Below are positions 23,878-35,974 of a DNA stretch of 64,000 nt, one piece after another. The notes under the pieces are model-generated. The model was not told the origin of the DNA, did not search any database, and worked only from the letters and a program-made list of their open reading frames with translations. Position 1 is the first letter of the stretch, and every line of letters begins with the position of its first letter. Position numbers and translations under genes: made by a program. The DNA is taken from assembly GCF_001458175.1 (NCBI RefSeq), contig NZ_CYPW01000040.1, positions 220,697 to 284,696 of the forward strand, written 5' to 3'. The DNA is from Shimia marina. GTDB lineage: Bacteria; Pseudomonadota; Alphaproteobacteria; Rhodobacterales; Rhodobacteraceae.

Positions 23878-24672
23878 ATGCTGTCTTATCAACATATCTA
23901 CCACGCCGGAAATCTGGCGGATGTTCAAAAACACGCGCTGATGGCGGTGATGCTGGACTATATGACCCAGAAGTCCAAACCCTTGAGTTATCTGGAAACC
24001 CATGCGGCGCGTGGTGTGTATCAGCTTGATGATGCTGCTGCGTTGAAAACCGGTGAGGCTGAAGCCGGGATTGGGCGTGCGCAGGATTGGTTTGCAGCGG
24101 ATCACCCTTACATGCGGGCGCTTGAACAGGTGCGGGCCGTACATGGGGCGGCATCCTATCCGGGCTCACCAGCGGTAGCGGGCGCGCTTTTGCGTCCGGG
24201 GGATTCTGTGCAGCTCTGTGAATTGCACCCACAAGAGGCCGGAGCATTGCGACAGGCGATGCGCACAACCGGGGCGAAAATTCATCAGAAAGATGGTTTT
24301 GAGACCGTGATGGGGATCTGCCCGCCGACACCGCGGCGCGGGGCGCTGCTGATTGATCCGAGCTATGAGATCAAAGACGACTACAAAACGCTGCCGGGGT
24401 GGATTGGGAAGCTGCATCGCAAGTGGAATGTTGGCGTGATTGCCCTCTGGTATCCCATTCTGTCAGATGGGCCCCATAAGCCGATGATTGCGGCGCTTGC
24501 AGCGCAGGGCTTTCCCAAGGTTTTGCATCATGAGGTGGTTTTCCCCCCTGCACGAAAGGGGCATCGTATGGTAGGATCAGGCATGTTTATCATCAATGCG
24601 CCTTTTGGATTACATGAAGAGGCGCAGCGTCTGACGAAGAGATTTGTCGCTCTTCGCGCCCCCATGCGCTAG
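23878..24672 (+). CDS. rlmJ: 23S rRNA (adenine-2030-N6)-methyltransferase
   Basis: The 264-residue enzyme methylates A2030 of 23S rRNA using S-adenosylmethionine. It opens with the family-specific MLSYQHIYHAGNLADVQKH, has LETHAARGVY near 39, CELHPQE near 114 and the catalytic DPSY at 160-163, the RlmJ variant of the DPPY motif of N6-adenine methyltransferases. The length is close to the E. coli protein. It stands alone, divergent from mreB. Confidence 0.93.
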   Translation: MLSYQHIYHAGNLADVQKHALMAVMLDYMTQKSKPLSYLETHAARGVYQLDDAAALKTGEAEAGIGRAQDWFAADHPYMRALEQVRAVHGAASYPGSPAVAGALLRPGDSVQLCELHPQEAGALRQAMRTTGAKIHQKDGFETVMGICPPTPRRGALLIDPSYEIKDDYKTLPGWIGKLHRKWNVGVIALWYPILSDGPHKPMIAALAAQGFPKVLHHEVVFPPARKGHRMVGSGMFIINAPFGLHEEAQRLTKRFVALRAPMR

Positions 24673-24864: not shown

Positions 24865-26454
24865 ATGGGTTTGAACCCACTTAAGGCCGTCAGAAATGTC
24901 ACGGCCGCTGCTGCTGTTCTGGCGTCCTTTGCGACCGCTCTGACGGCGCAGGAGAAACCAAATGTGCTCGTGATCTGGGGGGATGACATTGGTCAATCCA
25001 ATATCTCCGCCTACACGATGGGTCTGATGGGCTATCGCACGCCAAACATCGACCGTGTGGCCAACGAAGGCATGATCTTCACCGATTACTATGGTGAGCA
25101 ATCCTGTACCGCAGGTCGCGCCTCCTATATCATGGGGCAGTCCGTGTTCCGCTCTGGCCTGTCCAAAGTTGGTCTGCCGGGTGCTGAACTTGGCATGCAG
25201 GAAGAAGATCCAACCATCGCAGGTCTTCTGAAGGCAGAAGGCTACATGACCGGTCAGTTTGGTAAGAACCACCTTGGTGACAAGGATGAGCATCTGCCAA
25301 CCAACCACGGTTTTGATGAGTTCTTTGGCAACCTCTACCACTTGAACGCGGAAGAAGAGCCTGAGAACGAAGACTATCCGGGCGACGCTGTGATGCCGGA
25401 TGGCCGTTCGTTCCGTGAAGCCTTTGGCCCGCGTGGCGTGATCAAGTCTTCCGCTGATGGCGAAATCGAAGACACCGGCCCGCTGACCAAAAAGCGCATG
25501 GAAACCGTTGACGAAGAAACCGTCAATGCGGCCATCGACTTCATCAAGCGTGCCAATGAGCAGGGCAAGCCTTTCTACGTTTGGTGGAATGGTACACGTA
25601 TGCACTTCCGCACTCACGTGAAGGAAGAGATGCGCGGCAAGGCCAACGATCTGGCAGGTCGTCAGCTGGATGAATACAGCGCTGGCATGATCGAACACGA
25701 CATTCAGGTTGGTCAGCTTCTGGACATTCTGGATGAGCTGGGCATCGCCGACAACACCATCGTGCATTACTCCACCGACAACGGCCCACATATGAACACA
25801 TGGCCAGATGCGGGCATGACCCCATTCTGGGGCGAAAAGAACACCAACTGGGAAGGTGCCTTCCGCGTGCCCTCCATGGTGCGCTGGCCGGGCAAGATCG
25901 AAGCGGGCTCTGTCTCCAACGAGATCATGCACCACATGGACTGGCTGCCAACCATTCTGGCGGCTGTTGGACGTGACAACATCAAGGAAGAGCTGAAAGC
26001 GGGTGGTGTTCAGGCCATTGGGCGTGAGTACAAAGTCCACCTGGACGGCTACAACTTCCTGCCAGTGCTGACCGGTGAGGCCGAAGTTGGGCCACGTAAA
26101 GAGATCTTCTACTTCTCTGATGAAGGGGATCTGACCGCGCTGCGTTTCCAGGACTGGAAACTGATCTTCATGGAGCAGAAAGCCTGGGGCACGATGCGTG
26201 CATGGCTTGAGCCTTGGACCGAGCTGCGTGCGCCACTGATCTTCAACCTGCGCCGCGATCCTTATGAGCGGTCTTACCGCACTTCCAACACCTACTACGA
26301 CTGGTGGCTGGATCGCGCGTACTTCCTGGTGCCTGCACAGCAGTATGTGGCCAACTTCCTTGAGACCTTCCAGGAGTTCCCACCACGCCAGAAAGCGGCA
26401 AGCTTCAGCCTCGATCAGGTGATCGAAAAGATGACGGCCCCTGTGGGTGACTGA
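24865..26454 (+). CDS. Secreted type I arylsulfatase-family hydrolase
   Basis: The 529-residue enzyme has a signal peptide (about 1-28) and a sulfatase core. It should hydrolyse a sulfate ester in the periplasm after its Cys81, in the motif CTAGR, is converted to formylglycine. Metal-binding residues include Asp40 and Asp41 (GDD), a KNHLGD motif at 134-139 and TDNGPH near 308; the C-terminal domain has FQDWKLIF. The signature has Ala and Gly where many sulfatases have Pro and Ser. No formylglycine-generating enzyme is encoded nearby. The gene is richer in CTG, AAC, TTC, GGT and CCA codons than its neighbours, suggesting strong expression. The substrate is unknown; phosphonate monoester hydrolase activity is an alternative in this fold. 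It leads the MoxR/Bat cluster. Confidence 0.85.
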   Translation: MGLNPLKAVRNVTAAAAVLASFATALTAQEKPNVLVIWGDDIGQSNISAYTMGLMGYRTPNIDRVANEGMIFTDYYGEQSCTAGRASYIMGQSVFRSGLSKVGLPGAELGMQEEDPTIAGLLKAEGYMTGQFGKNHLGDKDEHLPTNHGFDEFFGNLYHLNAEEEPENEDYPGDAVMPDGRSFREAFGPRGVIKSSADGEIEDTGPLTKKRMETVDEETVNAAIDFIKRANEQGKPFYVWWNGTRMHFRTHVKEEMRGKANDLAGRQLDEYSAGMIEHDIQVGQLLDILDELGIADNTIVHYSTDNGPHMNTWPDAGMTPFWGEKNTNWEGAFRVPSMVRWPGKIEAGSVSNEIMHHMDWLPTILAAVGRDNIKEELKAGGVQAIGREYKVHLDGYNFLPVLTGEAEVGPRKEIFYFSDEGDLTALRFQDWKLIFMEQKAWGTMRAWLEPWTELRAPLIFNLRRDPYERSYRTSNTYYDWWLDRAYFLVPAQQYVANFLETFQEFPPRQKAASFSLDQVIEKMTAPVGD

Positions 26455-26473
26455 TCTTTGATAAAATATGGAG

Positions 26474-26495
26474 GGACGCGCCCAAGGGTGCGTCC
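26474..26495. other. Hairpin between sulfatase and HAD phosphatase genes
   Basis: GGACGCGCCC (26474-26483) faces GGGTGCGTCC (26486-26495) with one mismatch; in practice the loop would open the inner pairs. There is no T-run, only TTCGCTTCT downstream. It may stabilise the upstream message or act as a partial terminator, giving more sulfatase than downstream products. Confidence 0.5.
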
Positions 26496-26538
26496 TTCGC
26501 TTCTATGACTGTTTGATTTCGAAAATCGGAGACTTTTG

Positions 26539-27519
26539 ATGCGGCTTTTTGTTGGTGCTGGCCTGTTGGCGGCTGCTTGGATGGGACCTGTGATGGCGGA
26601 TCCACTGCCTTCTTGGCAGGGCGAGTCCAAAGAGAAGATCATTTCCTTTGTGGAAGCCGTTTCTGAAGTGGGGGGCGCGGATTATGTGACGCCCGCCGAC
26701 CGTGTTGCCGTGTTTGACAATGACGGGACGCTCTGGGCGGAGCAACCGGTCTATTTCCAATTGATTTTTGCGGTGGATCAGGTGGCCAAGCTGGCCGCGC
26801 AAGATCCCTCGATCCTGACCAGCGATGCTCTGAAGGCTGCTGCGGCGGGCGACTATGAGGCGCTGGCAGCGACAGGTAAGGAAGGCCTGCTTGAGGTGCT
26901 CGCGGCCTCCCATACAGAAGTGTCGCTTTATCAGTTCCAGCAGGACGTTTCGGCCTGGCTGGAAGAGGCGCGCCACCCCAAGACTGGCATGCGCTATGAT
27001 GAGATGACCTATCAGCCGATGGTCGAACTGCTGCGCTATCTGCGCGATGAGGGGTTTCAGACCTACATTGTTTCCGGCGGCGGCATTCAGTTCATGCGGG
27101 TTTTTGCGGAGGATGCCTATGGCATTCCTCCACAGCAGGTGATCGGCAGCTCCATCACCTCAAGCTATGAAATGATCGATGGCGTGCCGGTGATCATGAA
27201 AGGTGCAGAGCTGTTCTTCAATGATGACAAGGCTGGCAAGCCTGTGGGCATCATGCACCACATTGGCAAACAGCCCATTCTGGCCGGGGGCAACTCCGAT
27301 GGCGACTTTGAGATGCTGGAATTCACCACCACCGGCGAAGGGGCGCGGCTGGGCGTTTATGTGCATCACACCGATGCGGAGCGTGAGTGGGCCTATGATC
27401 GGGAAGGCCATATCGGTGTCTTGAACCGTGGTCTTGACGAGGCGGATGCGCGGGGCTGGGTTCTGATTGACATGAAAGAGGACTGGAGCCGGATTTTCAC
27501 AGGCGAGGGTGCAGAATAA
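26539..27519 (+). CDS. Exported HAD-superfamily phosphatase
   Basis: The 326-residue protein has a signal peptide (1-20, cleavage after VMA) and haloacid dehalogenase motifs: DNDGT with the nucleophile at Asp60 and acid/base at Asp62, IVSGGG for motif II near 180, a lysine region near 234 and GGNSDGDFEML for motif IV near 254. An exported HAD of this kind probably hydrolyses a phosphomonoester in the periplasm. It sits 84 bases after the sulfatase and two bases before moxR, so it shares their transcript. Its substrate, and whether it acts on a product of the sulfatase, are unknown. Confidence 0.82.
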   Translation: MRLFVGAGLLAAAWMGPVMADPLPSWQGESKEKIISFVEAVSEVGGADYVTPADRVAVFDNDGTLWAEQPVYFQLIFAVDQVAKLAAQDPSILTSDALKAAAAGDYEALAATGKEGLLEVLAASHTEVSLYQFQQDVSAWLEEARHPKTGMRYDEMTYQPMVELLRYLRDEGFQTYIVSGGGIQFMRVFAEDAYGIPPQQVIGSSITSSYEMIDGVPVIMKGAELFFNDDKAGKPVGIMHHIGKQPILAGGNSDGDFEMLEFTTTGEGARLGVYVHHTDAEREWAYDREGHIGVLNRGLDEADARGWVLIDMKEDWSRIFTGEGAE

Positions 27520-27521
27520 TC

Positions 27522-28514
27522 ATGGGCACGATGGAGCAGATCCAAGCGTTAAAAGAGCGCATGCAGCAATCGATTATTGGTCAGGAGGCGGTGATTGACC
27601 GCCTGCTGATCGGGCTGTTGGCCAATGGCAACCTCTTGCTGGAGGGGCTGCCTGGCCTCGCCAAGACCCGTGCGGTGAAGGCCTTGGCGAAAAATATGGA
27701 GTGTGATTACTCTCGCATCCAGTTCACCCCGGATCTTTTGCCGGCAGATGTGACCGGCACAGAGATGTACTTTCAGAGTGACACCGGTGGTCAGTTCAAA
27801 TTTCAGCCGGGCCCGATTTTTGCCAATATCGTGCTGGCCGATGAGATCAACCGCGCGCCTGCGAAAGTGCAGGCGGCGTTGCTCGAAGCGATGGAAGAGC
27901 GGCAGGTGACCGTTGCGGGCACCACGCATAAAATGGCGCCACTGTTTATGGTCTTGGCCACGCAGAACCCGGTGGAGCAGGAAGGCACCTATCCGCTGCC
28001 AGAAGCGCAGATGGACCGGTTCCTGATGCACGTGCGCATTGAGTATCCCCCTCTGGCGGATGAAATCGAAGTGATCCGTCTTGTGCGCCGCGAAGAGCAG
28101 GCGGCGCTGATGGCGCAGACCGAGGAAGGCGGGGCAGAAGCGCCGCGTCCACCGATTGCGCAGGATGTGGTGTTTGACGCGCGGCGCGAGATCGCGGCTT
28201 TGCACTGCGCTGAGGCGATGGAAACCTATATGGCAACCATCGTGCAGGCCACACGCACCCCGGCGGAGTTTGGCGATACCCTTGCCAAATGGATCGAGAT
28301 TGGTGCCAGCCCGCGTGCCTCGCTGGCCTTGGATCGCTGTGCGCGCACCCATGCCTGGCTGGCGGGCCGCGACTATGTGGATCCGGAAGATGTGCGCGCG
28401 ATTGCGCCGGATGTGCTGCGACATCGGTTGGCGCTCAGCTATGAGGCGCAGGGTACGGGCGTGTCTGCAGATCAGGTGGTGGCAGAGGTGCTTGCGCAGG
28501 TGGCCTTGCCCTAA
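27522..28514 (+). CDS. moxR: MoxR-family AAA+ ATPase
   Basis: The 330-residue cytoplasmic ATPase has Walker A GLPGLAKT at 42-49, Walker B IVLADE at 103-108, and sensor 1 around [19 protein letters not shown] near 144. MoxR proteins act with von Willebrand A proteins as chaperones in the maturation or metal loading of enzyme complexes. Here it is followed by the full DUF58, DUF4381, BatA, BatB, BatD set. Its client is not known; the secreted sulfatase and octahaem cytochrome in the same operon are candidates. Confidence 0.93.
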
Positions 28515-28538
28515 GCGGGTTTGCGGAGGCAAGAGACA

Positions 28539-29546
28539 ATGCGATTTTCCATGGGGAAACACCGAGCTGCCCTGTCGCGCATGGGGCTTGGCGCGGCTGC
28601 GTCGGAGAAGACGAGTGCGACAGACCCGCGCATCCATGTGAGCCTGTCACATTTGCGCGGCCTGGCCCCGGCGGCGCGGGCGGTTTCTTTCCTGCCGCGT
28701 CAGCCTGCGACCTCGGTATTGCAGGGGCGGCACCGTTCGCGCATTCGCGGACGTGGGTTGGATTTTGAAGAGCTGCGCGATTATCTGCCGGGGGATGATG
28801 TGCGCGCGATTGACTGGAAGGTCACGGCGCGGGCGGGCAAACCCTATGTGCGGGTCTACACCGAGGAGCGTGATCGCCCCACATTGATTGTGGTGGATCA
28901 GCGCATGTCCATGTTTTTTGGCTCTGTGCGCAACACCAAGGCTGTGACGGCCGCAGAATGTGCGGCCATTGCCGCCCATCGGGTGACGGCGCAGGGGGAT
29001 CGCGTGGGCGGCATTGTCTTTAGCGATCAGGATATGGTGGAGCTGCGTCCCGGACGCGGGCAGGCCGCACTGACGCGTATGTTAACGGCGGTTGCCACCG
29101 CCAATGCCAGGCTGAGTGCTACAGCGCCAACGGTCACACCCATGGCGCTGAATGACGTTCTGAAATCTGTGCGCAAGCTTGCCATACGGGATCATCTCGT
29201 CATCTTGATCAGTGATTTTGATGCGGCTGATGCGGCTGATGCGGCGACAGAGCGCCATCTGGGCACCATTGCGCAACACAATGATTTGGTTTTGGCAGTG
29301 GTGCGGGACCCGACATCGGCGCAGTTGCCGGAAGCGGGCACGATTACCGGGACAGATGGCGCAAAACAGGCGGAGCTGAACATGTCAGATGCGCAGATGC
29401 GCTCTGATGTTCTGGCGCTGTCTGCGGATCGTCTGGCGCAGGTCCGTACATGGCAAAATCGTATTGGCCTGTCTGTTCTGTCGCTCAGCACAGCGGAAGA
29501 GACTTTGCCGCAGGTGGTTCAGGCGCTGGGAGGCGTGAGGCGATGA
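28539..29546 (+). CDS. DUF58 domain protein of the MoxR/Bat system
   Basis: The 335-residue protein carries the DUF58 hallmark GRGLDFEELRDYLPGDDVRAIDW (residues about 71-93) followed by a region with a von Willebrand A-like fold (IVVDQRMSM near 114 and LILISDFD near 211). The first has DxRxS in place of DxSxS, so metal binding there is doubtful. No strong membrane segments were seen, unlike many DUF58 proteins. ATG 28539 is preferred because GGAGG lies nine bases upstream. The stop overlaps the next ATG (ATGA). Confidence 0.88.
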   Translation: MRFSMGKHRAALSRMGLGAAASEKTSATDPRIHVSLSHLRGLAPAARAVSFLPRQPATSVLQGRHRSRIRGRGLDFEELRDYLPGDDVRAIDWKVTARAGKPYVRVYTEERDRPTLIVVDQRMSMFFGSVRNTKAVTAAECAAIAAHRVTAQGDRVGGIVFSDQDMVELRPGRGQAALTRMLTAVATANARLSATAPTVTPMALNDVLKSVRKLAIRDHLVILISDFDAADAADAATERHLGTIAQHNDLVLAVVRDPTSAQLPEAGTITGTDGAKQAELNMSDAQMRSDVLALSADRLAQVRTWQNRIGLSVLSLSTAEETLPQVVQALGGVRR

Positions 29547-30085
29547 ATGAGACCCAAACGCAGCAGGCAGCAGGGACGCAGGCGCAGGGGGACTCAGACA
29601 GCCTCGTCGGCCTGATGAACCAGCTTGCGGAGGTGCCTGACCCGGCGGCTGTTTCTATGATGCCACAGACCGCCGGTTGGGCGGTTCTGGCGGCTGTTTT
29701 GCTTTTGGTTGCGGTTTGGCGTGGCTGGGTGCGCTGGAAAAGATATCAGGCCAATGCCTATCGTCGAGAAGCTCTGCAGGCGTTGAGTGGAGCAGGGGAA
29801 GATGTGGTGATGATCTCCACAGTCCTCAAACGCACCGCGCTGACCGCCTATGGGCGTGAGGCTGTGGCCTCTCTGAGTGGGGCGGCGTGGTTGCGGTTTT
29901 TGGCGCAAACTGGTCAGGAAGCGGCTTTTGAGACCGGGGCAGGGCGGGTGCTTGCAACGGCTGCCTATGTGGCGGGGCCTGTGAGCGGAGGGGCTGAGGT
30001 GGCGCAGCTTGCGCGCAAATGGATCAAAACACATGATCCGACCCATCCCCTGCAAGACGTATTGGCGGAGGCGGCAGATGTTTGA
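29543..30085 (+). CDS. DUF4381 membrane protein of the Bat cluster
   Basis: The 180-residue protein has a polar, glutamine-rich N-terminus, one membrane segment at about 45-62 and a cytoplasmic helical domain with the conserved TALTAYGREAVASLSGAAWLRFL region near 100. This matches DUF4381, a family found almost only between DUF58 and BatA genes. Its role is unknown. The start at 29543 overlaps the DUF58 stop by four bases, and its end overlaps the BatA start by eight bases. Confidence 0.8.
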   Translation: MNETQTQQAAGTQAQGDSDSLVGLMNQLAEVPDPAAVSMMPQTAGWAVLAAVLLLVAVWRGWVRWKRYQANAYRREALQALSGAGEDVVMISTVLKRTALTAYGREAVASLSGAAWLRFLAQTGQEAAFETGAGRVLATAAYVAGPVSGGAEVAQLARKWIKTHDPTHPLQDVLAEAADV

Positions 30086-31061
30086 ACTGACGCATCCCTG
30101 GGTTTTTGTTTTGCTGCCTCTGCCTTGGTTGGTGCGGATTTTGACCCCGGCGTTTCGTCAGCGCGATGATGCGCTGAGATTACCGTTTTTTGCGGCGCTG
30201 ACAGAACGTACCGGCGCTGTCGTACGCGATGGGGCGACGGTTGTTTCCCATAAACGGCGGGCTTTGTTGGTTGGAGCCGTGATCTGGGCGCTTGGGCTTT
30301 TGGCTTTGGCGGAGCCTGTGCGTTTGGGGCCGCCGCAAGAAATCACCAAAGCGACGCGGGATGTGATTTTGGCGATTGATATCTCCGGCTCCATGGATGC
30401 GGTGGATTTCCCCGGGGCAGATGGCGCGCCTCAGCAGCGTCTTGCGGCTGTTCAGGACGTGGTGGCGGAGTTTCTGGAGAAAAGGCAGGGGGACCGGGTT
30501 TCTCTGATTGTTTTTGGATCCCGTGCCTATGTGCAGGCCCCTCTGACCGAAGATCTGGACACCGTCGAAGCGCTGTTGGGGCAGACACAGGTGGGCATGG
30601 CCGGGCCGCACACCGCGTTGGGCGATGCGATTGGCCTTGCGATCCATAGCTTTGAGGCCAGCGAAATCGAAGAGCGGCTGTTGATCCTTCTGTCAGATGG
30701 CAATGATACCGCCAGCCGGATGAGCCCGGTGAATGCAGCGGAGATTGCCAGTGACAAAGGGGTGACCATGTTTGCCATTGGTGTGGGGGATCCGGAGGGC
30801 ACTGGAGAAGAGCGTCTTGATATGGATGCATTGAGTGATTTGGCGCAACGTACAGGTGGAGAAGGGTTCTTTGCCGCTGACAGCGCGGCGCTTGAGGCAA
30901 TTTACAATGAAATCGACGCCCAGACACCGCGCGATCAAGACACGCTGAGCTGGCGCCCACGAGAACCGCTGGGTCATTATGCGCTGATGGGGGCGGTTGC
31001 GTTGGGGATGGTGTTGATGCTGGCTTTCTGGGTGCGTGGCATGCGGAGGCCGGTGCGATGA
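30078..31061 (+). CDS. batA: BatA-like von Willebrand factor A protein
   Basis: The 327-residue protein has membrane segments near 8-26, 62-79 and at the C-terminus (about 298-318), with a VWA domain between. The metal ion-dependent adhesion site is intact: DISGS at 101-105, a threonine in PHTALGDA near 178 and an aspartate in LSDGNDT near 208. VWA proteins of this type partner MoxR ATPases. ATG 30078 overlaps the DUF4381 gene; a start at 30009 would lie far inside it. Its stop overlaps the next ATG. Confidence 0.9.
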   Translation: MFELTHPWVFVLLPLPWLVRILTPAFRQRDDALRLPFFAALTERTGAVVRDGATVVSHKRRALLVGAVIWALGLLALAEPVRLGPPQEITKATRDVILAIDISGSMDAVDFPGADGAPQQRLAAVQDVVAEFLEKRQGDRVSLIVFGSRAYVQAPLTEDLDTVEALLGQTQVGMAGPHTALGDAIGLAIHSFEASEIEERLLILLSDGNDTASRMSPVNAAEIASDKGVTMFAIGVGDPEGTGEERLDMDALSDLAQRTGGEGFFAADSAALEAIYNEIDAQTPRDQDTLSWRPREPLGHYALMGAVALGMVLMLAFWVRGMRRPVR

Positions 31062-32686
31062 CGGGTGAGACGGCAATGGTGTATCTTGATGCGTTTCACT
31101 TTTTGCGGGGCTGGCTGTTTTTGGCGGCGATACCGGTTGTTGTGATCTGGTGGCAGACGCGACGGAAATCCTCTGCCGCTGAGCTGCGCAGTGACTGGAT
31201 CGCACCGCATCTGGCAGCGGCCTTGACCGTGCCGGGAAACAGTTCAAGAGGCGTGCAGCCCATTGATGTGATTGCGCTTGTCTTGCTGTTGCTGATTGGT
31301 GCGGCCGCGGGTCCCACATGGAGCCGTGCGCCTGCGCCTTTTGCGGCGCAGACCGCGCCTTTGGTGATTGTGATGCAGGTCACGCCGTCGATGGAGGGCA
31401 CGGATGTGGCACCCAGCCGACTGGCGCGTGCCAAACAGAAAGCGATGGACCTGTTGGAGTTGCGTGCAGGCGCGCGTACGGCGCTTGTGGGCTACGCAGG
31501 GTCGGCGCATGTGGTGGTGCCGATGAGCGAAGATCCCGGAGTGATGCAGCCCTATCTTGAGGGGCTGTCTCCGGATGTGATGCCCATTGAGGGGCGGGAC
31601 GTGGCACAGGGTTTTGCGCTGGCGCAGAGTTTGCTGGCGCGGGAAGCCAGTGTGGGGGGGATTGTTTTCCTGCTTGATGAACTGGCGGCAGCGGATGTGG
31701 CCGCACTCGAAGACACAAGCGCCACTGGCGCGTCTGTGTCACAGGAAGGCGCGGCGGAAGACGCCCCGCCTGCGGAGGGCCGAAAAGTGGCCTCTTTGAG
31801 CTTTCTGTATCTCTTGCCGGAGGACGCTGCCCTGCCGTCTGGCCCAACCGGCAGCACGGCCCATATCGTGACGCCGGATGGGCGGGATGTGGCGGCTGTG
31901 GAGCGGTCGCTGGCCTCAGCTTATCAACGGGCGCAGTTGGACAATGAGGCCCAGCCTTGGGAAGATCGCGGCGCGTGGCTGGTTTGGCCTGCATTGCTTT
32001 TGTTGCTGTTGTGGTTCCGGCGCGGCATGGCCGTGCGCTGGGCGGCGCAAATGGCTTTTGTTCTGTGGGTCTTACAGCCACAGGTGGCGCATGCAGATGG
32101 CTGGCGAGACTGGTTTTTGACGCCCGATCAGCAAGGCTGGATTGCCTATCAGAACAAAGACTATGCGCGCGCCGCAGAAGCTTTTGCGGATCCGTATCTG
32201 CGGGGCGTCGCGCTTTATCGGGGGGGGCAATATGAGGTCGCGGCTGAGGAAATGTCCCGGCTGGAGACTGCGGATGCCGCCTTTATTGAAGGCATGGCGC
32301 ATTTGAAATCCCGTGGCTACCGAGATGGTGTACGTGCTTTCGAGCGTGCGCTTGCGCTTGATCCGGCACATGAGGCGGCGGCGCAGAACCTGCCTGTGTC
32401 CAAAGAGATCGTGACCTATGTGGAAACCACGCGGGAGCAATCCGACACCGGTGAGGATCGCGGCATCGGCGCGGATGACGTGGTGTTTGACAATGAATCC
32501 GGTAAGGGCGTGGAAACCCAGATTGAGGCGTCTGACGAGGACAGCCCAGAGGCGCATTTGTCCACCGATCAGTGGATGCGCACAGTGGACACGCGTACAG
32601 AAGATTTTCTGAAGCAGCGTTTTCGCCTTGAAGCGGCGCAACGCAAGAGTGCTGAGACTGCGGGTGCGCAGGAGGCAGAGCAATGA
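31058..32686 (+). CDS. BatB/BatC-like protein: degenerate VWA domain plus TPRs
   Basis: The 542-residue protein has membrane segments near 18-32, 68-84, 309-323 and 330-345. A VWA domain lies between the second and third, then TPR-like helices from about 355 to 450 and a charged, acidic tail. The metal-site motif reads QVTPS at 107-111, so the first Asp of DxSxS is Gln; metal binding is probably lost or altered. This looks like a fusion of BatB (VWA) and BatC (TPR), which are separate genes in other genomes. An alternative start is 31076 (MVYLD). It overlaps both neighbours by four bases. Confidence 0.85.
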   Translation: MTGETAMVYLDAFHFLRGWLFLAAIPVVVIWWQTRRKSSAAELRSDWIAPHLAAALTVPGNSSRGVQPIDVIALVLLLLIGAAAGPTWSRAPAPFAAQTAPLVIVMQVTPSMEGTDVAPSRLARAKQKAMDLLELRAGARTALVGYAGSAHVVVPMSEDPGVMQPYLEGLSPDVMPIEGRDVAQGFALAQSLLAREASVGGIVFLLDELAAADVAALEDTSATGASVSQEGAAEDAPPAEGRKVASLSFLYLLPEDAALPSGPTGSTAHIVTPDGRDVAAVERSLASAYQRAQLDNEAQPWEDRGAWLVWPALLLLLLWFRRGMAVRWAAQMAFVLWVLQPQVAHADGWRDWFLTPDQQGWIAYQNKDYARAAEAFADPYLRGVALYRGGQYEVAAEEMSRLETADAAFIEGMAHLKSRGYRDGVRAFERALALDPAHEAAAQNLPVSKEIVTYVETTREQSDTGEDRGIGADDVVFDNESGKGVETQIEASDEDSPEAHLSTDQWMRTVDTRTEDFLKQRFRLEAAQRKSAETAGAQEAEQ

Positions 32687-34005
32687 CGTGGATTTTGAGA
32701 TGCCTCGCGTGCCTTGTGTTGGTGAGCGGCGCAGTTTTTGCCCAAGAGCAGCCTGACCCAGAGGCGAATGCCGCTGCAGGGCAGGCGGCACAGGCGCAGA
32801 TCGAGGTGCAGTTTGAGAAGACGGAAACCGTGCCGGGGCAGCCCCTGACGCTGCGGTTGACTGTTTTTGTGCCCACATTCATGCCGGATCCGCCGATTTG
32901 GCCTGATTTTGAGAGTGCGAACCTCTTGGTGCAATTGCCGAAGAAAGCTAGCACTGCCACAAGCAAAACGGTGGGTGGTGAGACCTGGTCCGGGATCACG
33001 CGGCGCTATCAGATCACACCTTTGGTGCCGGGGACGTTTACCTTGCCTGCCAGCGATGTTCAGGTGCGTTATCAGGCCGAAAGCGGCAGCGATGTGATCG
33101 AAGAAAGCCTTGCAGTGCCTGAGATCACTCTCACTGGGGTGATGCCCGAAGGGGCCGAAAGCCTTGATCCCTTTGTCGCAGCCAATGGTCTCAAGCTGTC
33201 TCAAAAGGTGGAAGGCACGCCCGAAGATCTGAAGGCTGGGGACAGTTTTACGCGGGTTGTGACCGCAGAGATTGACGGCGTGACGCCGATGTTTTTGCCA
33301 TCTTTGGTATCTGAGGAAGCACCCGGCGGGCTGCGTGCCTATCCTGAGACACCGCAGGTGGAGGAGAAAGAAGATCGTGGTCTTCTGTCTGGGCTGCGCA
33401 CAGAAACCGTTGTCTATGTTGCCGAAGGCGGCGTGGATGGGGTTCTGCCTGAGATCACGCTGAGGTGGTACAATCTGAAGACCCAAAGCCTTGAGGAGGC
33501 CACCCTGCCTGAGATCGCTGTCAAAGCGTCTGCGCCTTTGGTTGCGGTTGGGCCTGAGGGGAGAGACTATACACGTCTGATAGCTTGGGTTGGCGTGGCG
33601 GCTTTGCTTCTTGTGCTGGCTTTTGCGGCGCGGATCTGGCTGGCGGAGCCTTTGGCGGCCTATTTGGCCGCGCGCCGCCAAAGACATGTGGCAAGCGCGC
33701 GCTATGCGTGGAAACGTTTGCAAGGCGCTGTGAAACAGCAGGACCTGCTGCAGACGCAGGAGGCCTTTGCCCTCTGGCGTGCGCGTGTTGTGGGGGTAGA
33801 CCCAGCAGCGGAGGCCGCAGTCACGGAGGCGTTTTTTGCCCTTGGGCGTGGTCGCTATGGGCGAGAGACATCATCGCAGGCCGTCGCGGATTGGCGGGCT
33901 TTGGAGCAGAAATTACATGCACTGCACGGTACGGCGCGCTATCCTTTAAGAAATGAGACAGCCGCTTTGAAAGCTCTAAACCCTGTGGCGACACAGCTAA
34001 AGTGA
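32683..34005 (+). CDS. batD: BatD-like periplasmic/membrane protein
   Basis: The 440-residue protein starts with a signal peptide (about 1-20, FAQEQ) followed by beta-rich oxygen-tolerance (BatD) repeats, for example VPGQPLTLRLTVF near 47 and RRYQITPLVPGTFTLP near 106. A membrane segment at about 302-322 precedes a cytoplasmic helical tail of about 115 residues. BatD proteins accompany MoxR/Bat systems; the name comes from aerotolerance in Bacteroides, but the molecular function is unsettled. It overlaps the preceding gene by four bases and is followed after ten bases by the octahaem cytochrome gene. Confidence 0.85.
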   Translation: MTWILRCLACLVLVSGAVFAQEQPDPEANAAAGQAAQAQIEVQFEKTETVPGQPLTLRLTVFVPTFMPDPPIWPDFESANLLVQLPKKASTATSKTVGGETWSGITRRYQITPLVPGTFTLPASDVQVRYQAESGSDVIEESLAVPEITLTGVMPEGAESLDPFVAANGLKLSQKVEGTPEDLKAGDSFTRVVTAEIDGVTPMFLPSLVSEEAPGGLRAYPETPQVEEKEDRGLLSGLRTETVVYVAEGGVDGVLPEITLRWYNLKTQSLEEATLPEIAVKASAPLVAVGPEGRDYTRLIAWVGVAALLLVLAFAARIWLAEPLAAYLAARRQRHVASARYAWKRLQGAVKQQDLLQTQEAFALWRARVVGVDPAAEAAVTEAFFALGRGRYGRETSSQAVADWRALEQKLHALHGTARYPLRNETAALKALNPVATQLK

Positions 34006-34015
34006 AAGACCCCGA

Positions 34016-35974
34016 ATGTTCCGAATGATCGGTAGCCTGCTGTGCGCGGGGGCTCTTGCCGCTGTTGCCGCCGCCACCTCTGCATCTGCGCAAGATACAT
34101 CGCAAGCCGCGCAGGAGGTGCCGGAGTATGTGGGTTCTCAGGCCTGTGTGTCCTGTCACGAAGATGCCGCGGAAAACTGGGAGATGTCCCATCATGCACA
34201 GGCCTGGCGGATGCCGGGGACAGACATGTTGGTGGGGGCGTTTGAAGGGGAGGTCTTTGAACATGACGGGATGCAGGCGACATTTACCACAGAGGGCGAT
34301 GCGCGGATTGTCACTGTGTTGGAAAAAGACGGCATCGAGCGTCGTTACACCGTGCACTCTGTTGGTGGGGTGACGCCACTTGAACATCTGATCCTTGAGA
34401 CTGGCAAAGGCCGGATGCAGAGTTTTGATGTGGTCTGGGATGTTGAGCAGAAGGCGTGGTTCCATCTGTATCCCGATCAGGATCTGCCACCGCAGGATGC
34501 CTATCACTGGAGTGGAGCTTACAAGAACTGGAACGCGCGCTGCGCAGAATGCCATGCTACAGGGTTTGAGAAAAACTACGATTTTCGCACCAAACGCTAC
34601 GCCTCCACACAGGTGGAGATTGGCGTGGGCTGTGAGGCCTGTCATGGGCCGGGGGCGGCGCATCTGGAGATCGTACAAGAGGGGGCGACACCACCCGGGC
34701 GCTATGCGGTTGCGTTAAATGACTGGGGCTTTTCGGCAGAGATGGGGGATCCGCAAGAGGCCATGGAGCAATGTGCGGGCTGCCATTCCCGGCGCGAAGC
34801 CTTTGGAGATGGCAATCCGCTGCCGGGGACAGCTTTTGCGGATGCGTATAATCTCGCAATGCTGCGGCCGGGCTTGTATCACGCGGATGGCCAGATCCTT
34901 GATGAAGTCTATGTCTATGGGTCGTTCAAACAGTCCAAAATGCACGATGCGGGCGTCACCTGTGCCAATTGCCACGAACCCCACAGCGGCGCCCTGGTCG
35001 CGGAGGGCAATGCGATCTGCACACAGTGTCACTCTGAGGCAGGAAATCCTGATTTTCCCACGTTGCGACTGGCAGAATATGACAGTGTTGCCCACACGAA
35101 ACACGCAGAAGACAGCGAAGGTGGGCAATGCGTGAGCTGTCACATGATGGATCAGGTCTATATGGGCAATGACTGGCGTCGCGATCACAATTTCCGCGTG
35201 CCGCGCCCGGATGTCTCCGCAAGATTGAATACTCCGGATGCCTGCACCCGATGTCACAGTGATGAGGATAGTGACTGGGCGGCGGCGCAGGTGGCGGCAT
35301 GGTTTCCCGAAGGGCGCTGGCGCAGCCCGCATTATGGGGACGTTCTGGCGCGAGGGCGCAGCAACTCGCAAGCCACAGCTGGTGAGCTGATGGCGCTGGC
35401 ACAGGACGCCAGTCAGGCGGATCTGGTCAGAGCAACAGCGCTTTGGCTGTTGGGGCCGGGCGCCAATGCGCTGGATTTGGCAGAGCTGGGGGCCTTTTTG
35501 GAGGATCCTGACCCACAGGTGCGGGTTGGCGCGCTGGATGCTTTGAAGGAACGGGCCGCCGTGGCCTCGGCTCCCTATCTGATCAAAGGGCTCAATGATG
35601 AGGTGCGTGCGGTCCGGATCGCCGCAGCGCGGGCGATCATGGGGCAACCTGCCTCGCGGATGCCAGACAGCCTGCGCCCATATGTTGGGCAGGCCTATCA
35701 GGAATTTGGCGCCATGGTGCGCAACCAGTTGGACTTCGCAGAGGCGCATTTGCAGGTGGCGGGCTATTCGATGGTAGCTGGCAATATCCCGGCAGCCATT
35801 GCCTCTTTGAGGGAAGCTGTCCGTATCAATCCTCAAAATGTTCAGGCGTGGCAGTCACTTGTGCGCCTTTCTGCGCAAACTGAGGGGCGGGCCGCCGCTG
35901 CGCGTCATCTGCGAAGAGCGTTGCGCTACAACCCGGAAGATCAGGTGTTGCAGCAAATGGCAGATCAGCTATAG
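34016..35974 (+). CDS. Exported octahaem cytochrome c with HEAT/TPR-like C-terminus
   Basis: The 652-residue protein has a signal peptide (about 1-25) and eight CxxCH haem c sites: CVSCH, CAECH, CEACH, CAGCH, CANCH, CTQCH, CVSCH and CTRCH, the first near residue 43 and the last near 410. The pattern fits cytochrome c554/NrfB-like and paired-CxxCH families. After residue 440 the haems stop and helical repeats follow, HEAT-like (LGAFLEDPDPQVRVGALDAL) and then TPR-like (AIASLREAVRINPQNVQAW). Such proteins carry electrons or reduce small substrates in the periplasm; the partner is unknown. It lies ten bases after batD and ends the operon. Confidence 0.85.
   Translation: MFRMIGSLLCAGALAAVAAATSASAQDTSQAAQEVPEYVGSQACVSCHEDAAENWEMSHHAQAWRMPGTDMLVGAFEGEVFEHDGMQATFTTEGDARIVTVLEKDGIERRYTVHSVGGVTPLEHLILETGKGRMQSFDVVWDVEQKAWFHLYPDQDLPPQDAYHWSGAYKNWNARCAECHATGFEKNYDFRTKRYASTQVEIGVGCEACHGPGAAHLEIVQEGATPPGRYAVALNDWGFSAEMGDPQEAMEQCAGCHSRREAFGDGNPLPGTAFADAYNLAMLRPGLYHADGQILDEVYVYGSFKQSKMHDAGVTCANCHEPHSGALVAEGNAICTQCHSEAGNPDFPTLRLAEYDSVAHTKHAEDSEGGQCVSCHMMDQVYMGNDWRRDHNFRVPRPDVSARLNTPDACTRCHSDEDSDWAAAQVAAWFPEGRWRSPHYGDVLARGRSNSQATAGELMALAQDASQADLVRATALWLLGPGANALDLAELGAFLEDPDPQVRVGALDALKERAAVASAPYLIKGLNDEVRAVRIAAARAIMGQPASRMPDSLRPYVGQAYQEFGAMVRNQLDFAEAHLQVAGYSMVAGNIPAAIASLREAVRINPQNVQAWQSLVRLSAQTEGRAAAARHLRRALRYNPEDQVLQQMADQL

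Follow-up and report, generated by a model that had tools for sequence, protein, structure and literature searches.

Why would a bacterium keep an arylsulfatase and an eight-haem cytochrome c in one gene cluster? The question is raised by nine genes of Shimia marina within the window analysed here, the 64,000 nucleotides at positions 220,697 to 284,696 of contig NZ_CYPW01000040.1. The formylglycine-generating enzyme (FGE, SUMF1; PF03781) depends on copper and O2. According to passages of PMC3920027 and PMC6189696, type I sulfatases need formylglycine, which is made from a cysteine or serine by FGE or by anSME. We find that the sulfatase and the octahaem cytochrome of the cluster belong to a conserved system in which Bat (Bacteroides aerotolerance) and phosphatase-like genes are common extras. 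The sequence-only reading of this locus had proposed an undescribed system linking a sulfatase to a multihaem cytochrome; the conservation of the block bears this out, and no description was found in the papers searched. The explanation that we favour, tentatively and with slightly less than even confidence, is that the cytochrome is a periplasmic sulfatase maturation system, or its redox core, and replaces FGE and anSME. Comparison of sequences across genomes suggests this role.

The sulfatase and the cytochrome occur together

The sulfatase and the octahaem cytochrome are tightly linked. In the order sample of 149 genomes, the cytochrome (cut-off E 1e-20) is present in 28 and the sulfatase (cut-off E 1e-40) in 29, with both in 28 (Fisher p ~2e-29, a value that overstates independence because the genomes are related). 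Their layouts include the full block, a sulfatase-HAD-cytochrome order without Bat (G018 and G031), divergent pairs, and pairs that lie apart in the genome. The HAD gene is found in 21 of the 149 genomes, every one among the 28 with cytochrome and sulfatase; in five of the 28, HAD is absent and a PF01663-type gene lies beside the sulfatase, one assigned by Pfam and the other four by clustering with it. MoxR of any kind occurs in 148 genomes and close copies (at least 68% identity) in 18, all within the 28. All 18 genomes with a close MoxR carry both sulfatase and cytochrome, and so do not refute the sequence-only reading, against which an absence of either gene from most close relatives of the Bat cluster would have counted.

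Beyond the order, the class sample of 289 genomes holds the cytochrome in 9 (E 1e-40) and the sulfatase in 8 (E 1e-100), with both in 5. Over the 398 genomes and 212 genera of the phylum sample, 35 genomes from 21 genera have the cytochrome (E 1e-60). It occurs there at 40 places, and the surrounding stretch includes a sulfatase at 27 of them, in 19 cases within 1.5 kb, and a MoxR at 15. At 80 named loci chosen by their cytochrome, a sulfatase is found in 40, MoxR in 33, HAD in 27, and a PF01663-type enzyme in 6. The gene caller trained on the window misses genes elsewhere, and the later scans used six-frame open reading frames with home-made profiles. The pair recurs in other Alphaproteobacteria and in Gammaproteobacteria, where Vibrio has it with the whole MoxR-Bat set. 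Several loci outside the class read sulfatase-cytochrome-MoxR-DUF58-DUF4381-BatA-BatB-BatD, as does a named Vibrio plasmid. Plasmid annotations show sulfatase-HAD-cytochrome triples in Roseibium, Rhizobium, and Sinorhizobium (strain RCAM1750), whereas in Methylosinus, Methylocystis, Pseudoalteromonas, and Vibrio (one gene between) sulfatase and cytochrome are plasmid neighbours. A plasmid record of Sinorhizobium meliloti 2011 includes a cytochrome homologue of 34.6% identity; according to PMC6189696, S. meliloti also has a putative FGE. Cytochrome relatives of Alteromonas and Granulicella (L161 and L162) have no sulfatase within 10 kb; they lie near genes for the use of sugar polymers.

The sulfatase is exported and of the cysteine type

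The window protein combines a Sulfatase domain with the C/S-x-P/A-x-R motif (Table 1), which places it among the type I enzymes. In an alignment of 13 sequences D40, D41, C81, R85, K134, H136, H247, D305, N306, and K325 are invariant, and we take these ten positions to be the metal and catalytic residues. At the 120 cytochrome-chosen loci (80 named and 40 from the phylum sample), 71 of 76 sulfatase motifs are of the cysteine type; four were not found and one was an odd match. Sulfatases of the CTAGR, CTPGR, and CSPTR types all lie beside the cytochrome, which is therefore not tied to one subfamily. By eye, the cytochrome-adjacent sulfatases carry signal peptides wherever the start is readable, consistent with a periplasmic cytochrome. 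Three family members (L073, L292, and L289) appear leaderless by eye and are presumably cytoplasmic. Two of these adjoin a leaderless FGE (G010) or an anSME (Paraburkholderia), and the third (Neorhizobium) has no maturase nearby.

Two arylsulfatases were found in the genome of the window, both with the CTAGR cysteine motif. The second (L199, G000:C9) is 49% identical, and its 20-kb stretch contains neither a maturase nor a cytochrome or Bat gene; at 21 loci of second sulfatases, this one included, there is no FGE, anSME, or cytochrome.

Most cytochrome genomes lack FGE and anSME

What, then, activates these sulfatases? Neither PF03781 (FGE) nor TIGR03942 (anSME) finds a match at E 1e-5 in the window's genome, which is 99.99% complete. 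Among 66 cytochrome genomes tested (28 from the order, 7 more from the class, and 31 more from the phylum), 46 have neither a true FGE nor an anSME above the cut-off, with FGE status taken from the top match, or the top two, in each genome. A true FGE was recognized by the cysteine pair that separates FGE from its paralogues. Four genomes (G663, G752, G633, and G751) were judged solely on Pfam score, 35.6-89.8 bits, where copies that carry the pair score 219 or more; in G155, G332, and G330 the best matches reach 205-215 bits without the pair, and a weaker true copy may be hidden. Two trivial causes of the absence were considered and rejected. A poor search does not account for it, since other genomes did yield true copies, which the cysteine pair sets apart from paralogues. 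Nor does fragmented assembly, given the completeness of the window's genome; G638, a single contig with sulfatase, cytochrome, and Bat, likewise has no PF03781 or TIGR03942 match.

No FGE (profile E <1e-60) or anSME (E <1e-20) occurs in any of the 80 named and 40 phylum-sample cytochrome loci, and the 13 FGE loci from 12 cytochrome genomes include a sulfatase in 10 and the cytochrome in none.

The partner beside the sulfatase is exchanged

What occupies the cytochrome's place in genomes that have the sulfatase and no cytochrome? In all four such genomes sampled (G010, G425, G295, and G291), an FGE lies 24-174 bases from the sulfatase reading frame, an adjacency seen in 4/4 sulfatase-only genomes versus 0/31 genomes with both genes (p 1.9e-5). 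The order is sulfatase-HAD-FGE in Skermanella, FGE-sulfatase-HAD in Methylobacterium, and anSME-sulfatase in Paraburkholderia. The same sulfatase subfamily stands in a sulfatase-HAD-cytochrome order in G018 and G031, and the CTPGR subfamily does so in Sinorhizobium, Rhizobium, and Roseibium.

Thirteen sulfatase-chosen plasmid loci, one per genus and selected from 215 records, extend the comparison. FGE is present in seven (Methylobacterium, Azospirillum, Leptolyngbya, Skermanella, Sinorhizobium medicae, Paracoccus yeei, and Rhizobium sullae), anSME in one (Paraburkholderia), and the cytochrome in two (Vibrio and R. sullae, the latter counted under FGE too). This set omits the five best matches (H101-H105), four of whose records carry the cytochrome, and so leans against it. 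The FGE-like gene of S. medicae (L290:3963-5834) has a broken frame and departs from the family before the active-site cysteines. The stretch of the R. sullae plasmid (L283) holds three sulfatases, HAD, the cytochrome, the whole Bat set, and FGE.

In a table of 50 sulfatases, restricted to matches below 1e-180 (the weaker L205, L206, L208, and G039 were left out), the cytochrome is in the stretch in 24 rows, FGE in 11, and anSME in 1, with one of these rows holding both kinds; 15 rows have no partner in the stretch, 11 of them from genomes with the cytochrome elsewhere. A tree of 47 of these rows (L039, L070, and L204 were out), built quickly, with some weak branches and with FGE and anSME pooled, requires at least seven changes of partner over 42 labelled rows, and at least six over 32 rows when the 10 with a distant cytochrome are omitted. 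HAD and Bat genes are found with either kind of partner, so that the varying element is the cytochrome, FGE, or anSME. This pattern suggests that the cytochrome stands in the slot where other bacteria keep a sulfatase-activating enzyme.

The octahaem cytochrome resembles multihaem enzymes

The cytochrome has eight CXXCH motifs together with HEAT and TPR repeats, and PF03781 is not among its Pfam matches. Exactly eight motifs are present in 112 of 112 relatives kept, a set filtered for at least eight and excluding split or partial cytochromes (e.g. L212 and L213). The closest named relatives, in Shimia, are 63-75% identical. A structure model built without haems from an alignment of 56 sequences (pLDDT 89.9, pTM 0.90) superseded an earlier one from 14 sequences (pLDDT 58.4); a beta-rich insert separates its first two haem motifs, and a helical-repeat arm is present. 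The best fold match of the model is OcwA (6i5b; E 4.8e-10, TM 0.40/0.52), and the sequence matches OcwA (2.9e-11), cytochrome c554 (1e-4), and MccA (0.0011). The haem core thus shares sequence and fold with the OcwA/MccA/NrfA/HAO multihaem enzymes.

Is there a haem at which chemistry could take place? Outside the CXXCH motifs only six histidines, plus Met306 and Met380, are invariant for the eight haems (alignments of 62 and 56 sequences). OcwA has six bis-His haems, one His-Met haem, and two open haems, as passages of PMC6703420 report. By the arithmetic of OcwA, the invariant residues would leave room for one open, catalytic haem. The cytochrome also has weak matches to two NCBIfam (seleno)protein families, UshA-like PCGU and ExtKL, and to the multihaem selenoprotein MccSep (PDB 9wt8), a hint of selenocysteine relatives.

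The cytochrome as a candidate sulfatase maturase

How might a cytochrome activate a sulfatase? It is possible, and on balance somewhat doubtful, that this multihaem cytochrome c represents a third kind of formylglycine-generating enzyme, one based on haem. It would oxidize the sulfatase cysteine in the periplasm and deliver the electrons to the respiratory chain, without O2-activating copper or S-adenosylmethionine, and its clients in Alpha- and Gammaproteobacteria would span several sulfatase subfamilies. We infer the binding by the arm, the catalysis, the path of the electrons, and the roles of the Bat and phosphatase-like proteins, as follows. The HEAT/TPR arm would hold the exported sulfatase, and the haem with the open site would take two electrons from Cys81, the active-site cysteine of the window's sulfatase. 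Oxidized Cys81 would hydrolyse to formylglycine, and the remaining haems would relay the electrons to the respiratory chain. MoxR/Bat would be a helper that the system can do without, and would present the sulfatase or refold it; HAD, or its PF01663-type substitute, would be an accessory phosphatase accompanying the sulfatase.

Could the cytochrome instead belong to the substrate pathway of the sulfatase, oxidizing the periplasmic product of desulfation or dephosphorylation, or receiving electrons from it? The tight co-occurrence and co-location of the two genes, and the exported phosphatase-like enzymes that share the cluster, would fit such a role. Nonetheless, we consider it unlikely, for the cytochrome adjoins several sulfatase subfamilies, as would be expected of a maturase more than of a single substrate pathway, and swaps with FGE beside the same subfamily; by eye, no transporter or catabolic gene seems constant around it. 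An indirect contribution to maturation or folding, in which the cytochrome would serve some other maturase as a thiol/disulfide redox partner, accept its electrons, or protect it, draws on the same phyletic and slot data, and the predicted TPR/HEAT arm would suit protein binding. Among the families scanned, however, no other gene looks as constant as the sulfatase and the cytochrome, and an indirect role is improbable in our judgement. The sequence-only reading gave MoxR and Bat the central part, as assemblers or metal loaders of the sulfatase or the cytochrome. This agrees with a close MoxR in 18 of the 28 order genomes with the cytochrome and with MoxR at 15 of the 40 phylum-sample loci, yet is very improbable given that the other 10 of the 28 lack one and that P. 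yeei keeps Bat with a sulfatase and FGE.

The P. yeei locus runs from sulfatase and MoxR to BatD, with FGE ~5 kb away and no cytochrome in its 21 kb; taken with the ten order genomes, it suggests that Bat goes with the sulfatase and not with the cytochrome. Bat was rejected as an essential core for want of a close MoxR in those ten genomes. HAD was rejected as a core as well, being present in 21 of the 28, with a PF01663-type gene in five of the other seven. The comparative evidence points to a cytochrome that acts on the sulfatase, with Bat as an optional helper.

Several observations weigh against a cytochrome maturase. Relatives of known activity act on small inorganic substrates, according to passages of PMC6703420. 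No sulfatase was found in the examined stretch at 13 of the 40 phylum-sample and 40 of the 80 named cytochrome loci, the rest of these genomes not being searched. A true FGE is present in 12 of the 66 cytochrome genomes and an anSME above the cut-off in 8. In five genomes of one genus an anSME lies ~10-20 kb from the cytochrome, and in a sixth ~39 kb; on the R. sullae plasmid FGE and cytochrome lie within 21 kb, and G529 has the cytochrome, yet its FGE adjoins a related sulfatase. At 4 of the 13 plasmid loci there is no maturase candidate within 10 kb. Finally, Escherichia coli has an unexplained activity of its own (passages of PMC6189696), so that a genome without FGE and anSME is no proof of a maturase role for the cytochrome.

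Organization of the gene cluster

The features of the cluster are listed in Table 1. The nine genes, their order, and their common strand are as the sequence-only reading gave them, and its tight junctions hold: DUF58 to BatD overlap, and 2 bases separate HAD from MoxR. With the likelier ATG starts, the gaps are 84 bases for sulfatase/HAD, 24 for MoxR/DUF58, -4 for DUF58/DUF4381, -8 for DUF4381/BatA, -4 for BatA/BatB, and -4 for BatB/BatD. BatD and the cytochrome are 19 bases apart, or 10, as first read, if the earlier ATG at 34016 is used. The cluster is flanked upstream by a gene for 264 amino acids (aa; 23878-24672) and downstream by an Mnh-type antiporter gene (from 36096).

Table 1. Features of the sulfatase-cytochrome cluster: feature, position in the window, strand, and evidence
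Exported type I (formylglycine) arylsulfatase, 529 aa, SCTAGRA motif with Cys81	24865..26454	+	Pfam Sulfatase 1.3e-46; signal peptide by eye
RNA hairpin, stem of 12 pairs, sulfatase/HAD intergenic	26471..26498	+	-29.2 kcal/mol, z -3.7 (86-nt gap folded)
Exported HAD-like hydrolase, ATG start (in-frame TTG at 26536)	26539..27519	+	Pfam HAD 1.7e-11
MoxR AAA+ ATPase	27522..28514	+	AAA_3 2.8e-63
DUF58 protein	28539..29546	+	Pfam DUF58 5.3e-40
DUF4381 protein	29543..30085	+	Pfam DUF4381 5.9e-31
BatA-like VWA protein, DxSxS (DISGS) by eye	30078..31061	+	VWA 1.2e-19; BatA_Lepto 3e-37, under its cut-off
BatB-like VWA + TPR protein, metal motif degenerate by eye	31058..32686	+	VWA_2 4.3e-12; TPR under cut-off
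BatD-like protein	32683..34005	+	BatD 6.6e-4, 20.7 bits versus cut-off 24.1; cluster position
Exported octahaem cytochrome c, C-terminal HEAT/TPR arm (other ATG at 34016); proposed sulfatase maturase	34025..35974	+	8 CXXCH

MoxR, DUF58, two VWA proteins, and BatD together identify a MoxR-Bat set, with BatD, under its cut-off, assigned by position. The closest solved structure to the HAD protein is 4ovy (2.1e-97). Because of the 12-pair hairpin between sulfatase and HAD, which is absent from the output of the terminator scan, a single transcript for all nine genes may be too simple a picture; the hairpin is possibly an mRNA stabilizer or processing site. A CRP/FNR-type regulator lies in or near the cluster at 17 of the 80 named loci (tblastn; L055, L056, and L086 among them), and oxygen or redox may control these clusters.

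Comparison with known systems

A third sulfatase maturation system in E. coli was reportedly inferred by Benjdia et al. in 2007. In passages of PMC6189696, two types of sulfatase-activating enzyme are established, and a third has been inferred in E. coli since 2007, its machinery unidentified. The role proposed for the cytochrome would likewise be formylglycine formation without FGE or anSME; unlike the E. coli activity, it comes with a concrete, widespread gene as candidate for a third sulfatase-activating role. No paper linking a multihaem cytochrome to sulfatase maturation was listed in the open-licence library searched, where PMC5573963, which contains the words sulfatase, formylglycine, and multiheme cytochrome, was not read. 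If true, the proposal would explain how bacteria without FGE and anSME could use exported sulfatases, would tie sulfatase activation to respiration, and might provide a new means of introducing aldehyde tags into proteins.

How does the candidate compare with the established enzymes? Like the cytochrome, FGE adjoins the same sulfatase subfamily, in the slot that the cytochrome occupies here; it acts on the cysteine motif, and some copies in these genomes look exported by eye. The two share no family, however, the cytochrome being a haem c protein, and a match to FGE is absent from the genome of the window. anSME is also a neighbour of the same subfamily, in Paraburkholderia, but is a radical SAM protein, presumably cytoplasmic, and again has no match in the window's genome. 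With known MoxR-Bat operons the cluster shares MoxR, DUF58, BatA, BatB, and BatD-like parts. It differs in its DUF4381 protein and in the placement of the set with a sulfatase and often the cytochrome, Bat not being universal in the system; the maturation proposal, if true, would also supply a client for a MoxR-Bat set.

The cytochrome itself is likened to OcwA, MccA sulfite reductase (4rkm), cytochrome c554, and the NrfA/HAO class by the sequence of its haem core, and most closely to OcwA by fold. Its beta-rich insert after the first haem motif can be likened, without superposition, to the beta domain that OcwA and MccA share according to passages of PMC6703420. OcwA has nine haems versus eight here, and the cytochrome differs further in its C-terminal HEAT/TPR arm and its link to sulfatases.

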